The translations under genes and the position numbers were made by a program. The notes below the pieces were generated by a model. It worked only from the letters and a program-made list of their open reading frames with translations. It was not told the origin of the DNA and ran no database searches. DNA of 22,216 nucleotides from a virus, in the IMG/VR virus record IMGVR_UViG_3300003873_000089, positions 1 through 22,216 of that record; one strand, written 5' to 3'. Positions 17,050 through 18,149 of this stretch are shown here, in pieces; positions within the stretch are counted from its first letter, which is position 1; each line of letters opens with the position of its first letter.

Positions 17050-17985
17050 TTACTGCTTGCACTGCAGTTCTACAATTCTTTGCTCGTCCATTCTTGTTGC
17101 ACCGGCATACATTCCAAAGAATATTTGAACCGCATAGTTTTTATCAGGTCTTTCGTCTATTTTAGCCTGAGTTTCCTTGTTTATGGCAAGCAGTAATCCC
17201 TCTTTTGTTAATCCAATTACGTCATCAACATCCGCCGTTGTAGTTCCGTCGGTTAAAGTAACCGTTTCGGTATTCGTTAGGTTAGTCATAACAAACTCAA
17301 AACCCATATAAGAATTGATTGTGCCTTGAGCTATTGCTCTAACAGTCTCAGCATCTCTGGTTAAGTTTGTGGAAGCTAAATCATTTAAGAGTGAGAATAC
17401 TTGACGAGCAGGCAAGATAAGGTATCTCGGCTCGTTGGGGTCAACGTCTGCACTGTCCAAAATCTCTTTTGCATAAATCAGTTTATCAAACGTCAAACCT
17501 GTAGCAGTATTTGCAGTTTCGTGGTCAGCAGTTATAACCTGCGTAGATGGTAATGTAACGGCAGTTGTTCCGTCTTTGCCTGTGTATGCCGTTCCTGTTG
17601 CGGCATTCAAAATAAGATGGTCAATCTTTCTGCCCATTGCATAAGCAATATTCTGGACATATCTTGACGTTGGGTCAGCAAGCATTCTAACCTTATCTTT
17701 CTGCTCAATCAAATATGCCTTTGTCAAGAATGAACCGCTTATCATTCTTCTGTTCCACTCTGGGTCAGTAATAACTGTATCAGGGTGTCTTGTATCAACA
17801 GAAGTGTTATCGTCAACAAGAGTTGTTATATCGTCGTCTTTTTCCAATACATCGTAAAAACCTTGCTCACCTTTAAGAACATCATTAAGCACTATGTTTT
17901 TAAGTCTTGAACCATTTTGCTGTAGTGCCATTATAATGTTATCGTGGAAGATTTTTACAAATGCGGTATCAATATAGTTAGCCAT
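17050..17985 (-). CDS. Major capsid protein, 311 aa
   Basis: Size, position after the scaffold and sequence character identify the HK97-fold coat protein of the Phage_capsid_2 type. It has an N-terminal helix (TAFVKIFHDNIIMALQQ), a RHPDT...RRMISGSFLTKAYLIEQKDKVRMLADPTS region (about 65-105), AMGRKIDHLILNAATG (116-131), and PRYLILPARQVFSLL (about 186-200), the family's strand-helix signature. It forms the icosahedral shell. The start is ATG 17985 with AGGGGG six bases upstream. That ribosome site and start codon are exactly complementary to a segment of its own leader RNA. It has its own promoter about 135 bases upstream, the only sizeable gap in the late operon apart from that before the lysis genes. 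Confidence 0.9.
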   Translation of the reverse strand: MANYIDTAFVKIFHDNIIMALQQNGSRLKNIVLNDVLKGEQGFYDVLEKDDDITTLVDDNTSVDTRHPDTVITDPEWNRRMISGSFLTKAYLIEQKDKVRMLADPTSRYVQNIAYAMGRKIDHLILNAATGTAYTGKDGTTAVTLPSTQVITADHETANTATGLTFDKLIYAKEILDSADVDPNEPRYLILPARQVFSLLNDLASTNLTRDAETVRAIAQGTINSYMGFEFVMTNLTNTETVTLTDGTTTADVDDVIGLTKEGLLLAINKETQAKIDERPDKNYAVQIFFGMYAGATRMDEQRIVELQCKQ

Positions 17986-18114
17986 AGGTAGCCCCCTAAA
18001 TAATGTTTAGTTTAAATTAGCTTTACAATTTGAACCCAATCCCTTGAGATTGTCCGCTAACTACTGAGCGGGTCTCCAAATTGTAAGGCTACCTATGGAA
18101 GGTAGTTGTCTTAC
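17982..18114 (-). ncRNA. Structured 5' leader RNA of the major capsid gene, candidate cis-regulatory switch
   Basis: The 128-base untranslated leader folds, by eye, into several exact helices. A local hairpin pairs 18089-18094 with 18100-18105 (six bp, five-base loop). A long outer stem P1 pairs 18077-18086 with 18023-18032 (ten bp). Inside it are P2 (18067-18071 with 18054-18058) and P3 (18048-18052 with 18037-18041), making a three-way junction. Finally 18087-18098 is exactly complementary over 12 bases to 17982-17993, which holds part of the ribosome site and the AUG of the capsid gene. That long-range helix would stack directly on P1 and shares bases with the local hairpin, so the two are mutually exclusive. 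The folds are seen; the switching role is inferred. No known riboswitch class is recognised. Confidence 0.65.
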
Positions 18115-18120
18115 ATTTTA

Positions 18121-18149
18121 ACTATAATGCAAATAATTTATTTTGTCAA
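18121..18149 (-). promoter_or_regulatory. Near-consensus sigma-70 type promoter for the capsid transcript
   Basis: On the minus strand, TTGACA (18144-18149) and TATAGT (18121-18126) are separated by exactly 17 bases. The spacer is AT-rich, and A-rich sequence lies upstream of the -35 box. Transcription would begin near 18114-18116. It lies 22 bases beyond the scaffold stop, in the gap before the capsid gene. It is a host-type promoter, so host RNA polymerase would read it, giving extra capsid transcription independent of the upstream operon. Confidence 0.82.

Follow-up and report, generated by a model that had tools for sequence, protein, structure and literature searches.

We propose that the 5′ leader of the capsid mRNA of this virus acts as a translational switch, in which a conserved hairpin motif would keep the start codon open and dismantling of this motif would mask it; our probability for this reading is about 0.6. 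The window, i.e., the whole stretch of DNA analysed, is a virus record of 22,216 bases with a T7-like structural block on its minus strand (terminase, portal, scaffold-like protein, capsid, and tail tube A and B). The RNA ahead of the capsid gene is structured and conserved. Sequence comparison and computed folding together show two mutually exclusive conserved folds, kept jointly in two phages, one of them masking the ribosome site and the start codon in a riboswitch-like manner. The switch as such thereby has strong support; which way it works, and any binder, are what we infer.

The capsid leader and its competing strands

The capsid protein of the window is about 40% identical to HTVC010P-type capsid proteins. 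Because a sigma-70-type promoter precedes the leader (Table 1), the transcript should begin near 18114, the 5′ end of motif 1, which coincides exactly with the leader start named by an earlier note on this DNA. The closest relative found, L001 (IMGVR_UViG_3300026488_000108; capsid protein 83% identical), has a promoter with 12/12 consensus matches at the same place, again putting the transcript start at motif 1. Besides, a terminator-like hairpin with a 12-bp stem (17015-16987, minus strand) lies right behind the capsid gene, just inside the tail tube A gene, and, like the late terminator of T7, could give the capsid gene an mRNA of its own. None was seen after the capsid gene of L001, and at 66-87 L001 carries a terminator-like hairpin immediately 5′ of its perfect-consensus capsid promoter.

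Table 1. Features of the capsid gene and its leader, in window coordinates
Feature	Position	Strand	Basis
Major capsid protein gene, 311 aa	17050..17985	(-)	phrog_3437 major head protein, E 1e-62
Strand C, GGCUACCUAUGG: G-run end, spacer, capsid AUG	17982..17993	(-)	complement of strand B; computed pairing
Ribosome-binding sequence AGGGGG	17992..17997	(-)	read directly
Closing stem, 3′ strand CAAAUUGU + extension AA	18023..18032	(-)	computed fold, L001 comparison
Rival hairpin, would break the outer stem of motif 2	18037..18052 (18052-18047 with 18042-18037)	(-)	computed fold
Motif 2, permuted: GAGA-C-CCGCU-CAGUAGUU-AGCGG-ACAA-UCUC	18046..18076	(-)	score 12.0; 5 double-sided compensatory changes vs L001
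Closing stem, 5′ strand ACAAUUUG	18077..18084	(-)	3 double-sided changes in 8 pairs vs L001
Motif 1 hairpin GUAAG-ACAA-CUACCU-UCCAU-AGGUAG-C-CUUAC (open form)	18083..18114	(-)	score 14.5
Strand B, anti-start strand CCAUAGGUAGCC	18087..18098	(-)	exact complement; P(pairing with start region) = 1.00
Strand A, CUACCU, competitor for strand B	18100..18105	(-)	changes along with B and C in L001
Sigma-70-type promoter TTGACA-17-TATAGT	18121..18149	(-)	11/12 consensus matches

The earlier note had described a 12-base complement between leader and capsid start, a six-base hairpin excluding it, and a ten-pair stem around two small hairpins. The complement is exact: minus-strand 18098-18087 (CCATAGGTAGCC) pairs with 17993-17982 (GGCTACCTATGG), the latter spanning the spacer and the ATG (17985-17983) together with the two final bases of the ribosome-binding G run, and a leader/start complement of 12 was reached in 0/300 shuffles. 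The six-base hairpin (18105-18100 with 18094-18089) is likewise present, within a longer hairpin closed by GTAAG/CTTAC (18114-18110 with 18087-18083). The two folds are confirmed to exclude each other; they share strand B, which can pair either with strand A or with the start region. Strand B is an inverted copy of the direct repeats A and C.

The ten-pair stem also appears in the computed fold, and the extension AA of the closing stem competes for the outer stem of motif 1. For the enclosed part, the two small hairpins are those of the computed fold; the comparative structure, GAGA-C-CCGCT..AGCGG-ACAA-TCTC (18076-18046), departs from the minimum-energy fold, in which the rival hairpin of Table 1 is used. 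This rival hairpin is kept in L001 with one-sided changes only. Another possible contact, between AGUUAGC in motif 2 (18062-18056) and the complementary GCUAACU formed by the codons right after the AUG (17982-17976), is not retained in L001.

Compensatory changes and folding computations

The earlier note had made its reading depend on compensatory changes in homologous leaders and on the helices being populated in a computed ensemble. Such changes are present in L001, whose leader has the same 5′ hairpin and the same inner domain as the window and a mask of 13 bases (CCATAGGATAGCC / GGCTATCCTATGG). Across eight helices, 15 pairs have changed on both sides between the two phages and 0 are broken. 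The mask helix itself carries no double substitution; it differs by a one-base insertion (CTACC to CTATCC in L001), found in strands A, B, and C alike. That all three strands followed suggests that both competing helices matter, since otherwise the third strand would have had no reason to follow. Furthermore, the 3′ strand of the outer stem of motif 1 (CUUAC; CCAGC in L001) fits both the 5′ end and the closing-stem extension, and it changes jointly with both of these rival partners. This covariation of the mask comes from a single pair of phages, in which template switching between inverted repeats could also have made the three strands uniform without selection.

The window leader folds at −43.4 kcal/mol (z −3.24), a value matched in 0/200 shuffles. 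In the window and in L001 alike, the masked fold has the lowest energy, with a mask probability of 1.00 and the AUG paired at >0.99 at 37 and 25 °C, the two temperatures computed; the mask helix is thus populated at about 1.0. Prefixes shorter than about 130 bases in the window, or about 150 in L001, fold with the 5′ hairpin A:B instead. In a direct-path model without pseudoknots, the barriers from the open to the masked form were 4.2 and 5.0 kcal/mol for the two RNAs, and the reverse barriers were 19 to 22 kcal/mol. Because the former are low, the open form would last only with help from a stabiliser or from ribosome traffic. The energy model places the full two-motif fold 17 to 23 kcal/mol above the masked fold, which would mean that the motifs are more stable than the model allows or that the motif state is either transient or held by a binder. 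When motif 1 was enforced in the model, the start region was still only partly free.

A two-copy motif in related capsid leaders

Alignment of eight capsid proteins was used to fetch 80 loci, and their leaders were compared. A motif recurs among them, consisting of a stem, R-Y-A-R on one strand facing a single Y, and then an inner stem, and it occurs in two circular forms. Motif 1 is the top-scoring match in the window on either strand, and motif 2 is the second. At score 8, the motif precedes the capsid gene in 51/57 distinct leaders against 29/570 random segments of the same contigs, and two copies occur in 23/57 leaders against 0/570 control segments; the scanner and its score were devised after inspecting the leaders, so that this enrichment describes the set and is no blind test. 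Shuffled and real-sequence controls were run with the same scanner. When any base was allowed both at core base 1 and at the base opposite, the combinations of the two were A-C in 50 cases (0.5 expected), G-U in 15 (0.4), and others in 0 to 3; this exchange of A·C and G·U is as expected for a wobble pair. The usual positions are about −130 and −60 relative to the AUG.

In the alignment of a 26-sequence group (A3), 94.2% of cells are paired and 12 of 20 pairs show changes on both sides. Four of five measures exceed all 500 shuffles, the fifth was reached by 11, and slid controls came nowhere near. Among the phages carrying the motif are those of Pelagibacter, as well as Vibrio phage phiVC8 (L188; capsid protein 24% identical), which has both copies. 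The earlier note had suggested a search for the same leader before the capsid genes of related phages, and the motif is indeed widespread there, but the mask is known only from the window and L001. That note recognised the 5′ hairpin as a competitor and overlooked its membership in a clade-wide, two-copy internal-loop RNA.

Scans of viral and genome collections with capsid proteins, and scans with leader patterns and with capsid codon patterns yielded no mask-bearing leader besides L001; all other capsid leaders compared have a leader/start complement of at most nine bases. The nine-base complements in L028/L032 and L060/L063/L095 were taken as chance, being either AT-rich or located outside the leader.

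A few individual leaders deserve mention. L187 has motif 2 twice upstream of its capsid gene, resembling a tandem duplication of the leader, and in phiVC8 the promoter predicted in the record's annotation overlaps a stretch with motif 2 (409-459). In the A3 group, e.g., in L039 and L073, motif 1 appears to adjoin the stop codon of the gene upstream, and ribosomes terminating there could disturb the hairpin.

No Rfam 15 family matched the window or 20 relatives at threshold, three further source sequences gave no match at E ≤ 1, and relaxed thresholds returned chance-level matches only (E 0.97 and 6.5). A tRNA-like reading, prompted by GCTCAGT and GGTTCAAAT, was dropped as ARAGORN found 0 genes. 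Motif 1 presumably also resembles a 16S rRNA helix, a likeness that we regard as coincidence since the stems vary freely among relatives. Within the literature searched, no published description of this capsid leader RNA was found, though one may exist.

Proposed switch, rival explanations, and known systems

In the proposed switch, the 5′ end of the open fold forms motif 1, the conserved hairpin with its ACAA/C internal loop, which would be the first structure to form in transcription. In the closed fold, the start region captures the 3′ half of motif 1, so that the AUG is hidden together with the spacer and the end of the ribosome site, and the extended closing stem captures the outer stem of motif 1. 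Capsid would be made as long as motif 1 was kept in place, either by ongoing ribosome loading or by a protein or another molecule that binds both motifs. Otherwise, the start codon would first pair with the loop CCAU, the complement of AUGG, and the mask would then zip up. The default would be off. Because the motif hairpin and the mask cannot coexist in the window or in L001, the motif is the natural sensor, with the mask as its output. Either the capsid or the scaffold protein could be the binder; in this variant, its attachment to motif 1 would raise translation instead of lowering it.

Since most relatives carry the motifs without the mask, the shared motif must have a role independent of it, and its original job, judged from the leaders compared, is probably something other than masking. 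It is conceivable, at somewhat less than even odds, that these leaders form an undescribed RNA family with two copies of the R-Y-A-R/Y internal loop, which would sense a molecule or protein and set the level of capsid synthesis in a large group of podoviruses, abundant ocean phages among them, the mask of the window and L001 being its output stage.

The earlier note had left a choice between a switch and a folding timer. The switch layout stands, given the three-strand covariation with L001 and the folding of both RNAs, and the plain timer is weakened by the barrier of 4 to 5 kcal/mol. Such a timer, as proposed for the maturation gene of MS2, would leave the start open on new RNA and shut at equilibrium with no binder. 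The order of folding suits it, as the 5′ hairpin comes first and the mask prevails only once the start is transcribed. However, the modelled barriers are too low to keep the RNA open for long unless ribosomes do so, and the conservation of motif 1 in mask-less relatives would go unexplained; we consider a passive timer unlikely.

That same conservation of the motifs across the clade fits another main role for the leader, e.g., in mRNA stability or processing, in antitermination, or as a site for a phage or host protein, with the mask as a minor damping element in two phages. Motif 1 also begins at the stop codon of the upstream gene in many relatives, which means that the leader RNA occurs within a long message as well. 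However, a mask of 12 to 13 bp that buries the AUG in both phages and was kept through a three-strand change is hard to call minor, and we judge this explanation quite unlikely. The repeats might instead act as DNA, in an operator or a replication signal, or be relics of template switching between inverted repeats, with RNA pairing incidental; their direct and inverted arrangement is of a kind that can be homogenised. Independent compensatory changes in the non-repeat helices (closing stem and motif 2) and RNA covariation across the clade make this highly improbable.

Few proteins of a tailed phage are needed in such amounts as that of the capsid, yet to our knowledge there are few accounts of its control at the RNA level in DNA phages. 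The conserved RNA that precedes the capsid gene in phages of Pelagibacter and Vibrio hosts offers a testable handle on the control of capsid output and a new RNA family to seek in viral metagenomes.

Among known systems, translational riboswitches with an OFF default and protein-binding leaders, e.g., those of autogenous ribosomal-protein control, likewise have a folded, conserved 5′ domain with a strand able to mask the ribosome site or start. In contrast to these, the capsid leader has a two-copy R-Y-A-R/Y motif absent from Rfam, has a putative binder only, and controls a phage capsid gene. RNA thermometers also mask the start region by pairing, whereas the mask of the capsid leader is modelled as >0.99 paired at 25 °C as well as at 37 °C, and its rival fold uses a conserved motif. 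The leader of the MS2 maturation gene is open during folding and closed at equilibrium, as the capsid leader would be; the latter, however, belongs to a DNA phage transcript, its modelled barrier is too low for a passive timer, and it has a conserved motif in place of a cloverleaf. The put RNA of HK022 is a two-stem structured RNA, with putL lying just 3′ of an early promoter, and causes antitermination in lambdoid early operons via the zinc-binding domain of the RNA polymerase beta-prime subunit (PMC9378689). It shares the two-stem structure and the promoter-proximal place with the capsid leader, a likeness of layout; where put RNA acts on RNA polymerase, the rival fold of the capsid leader buries the start codon.
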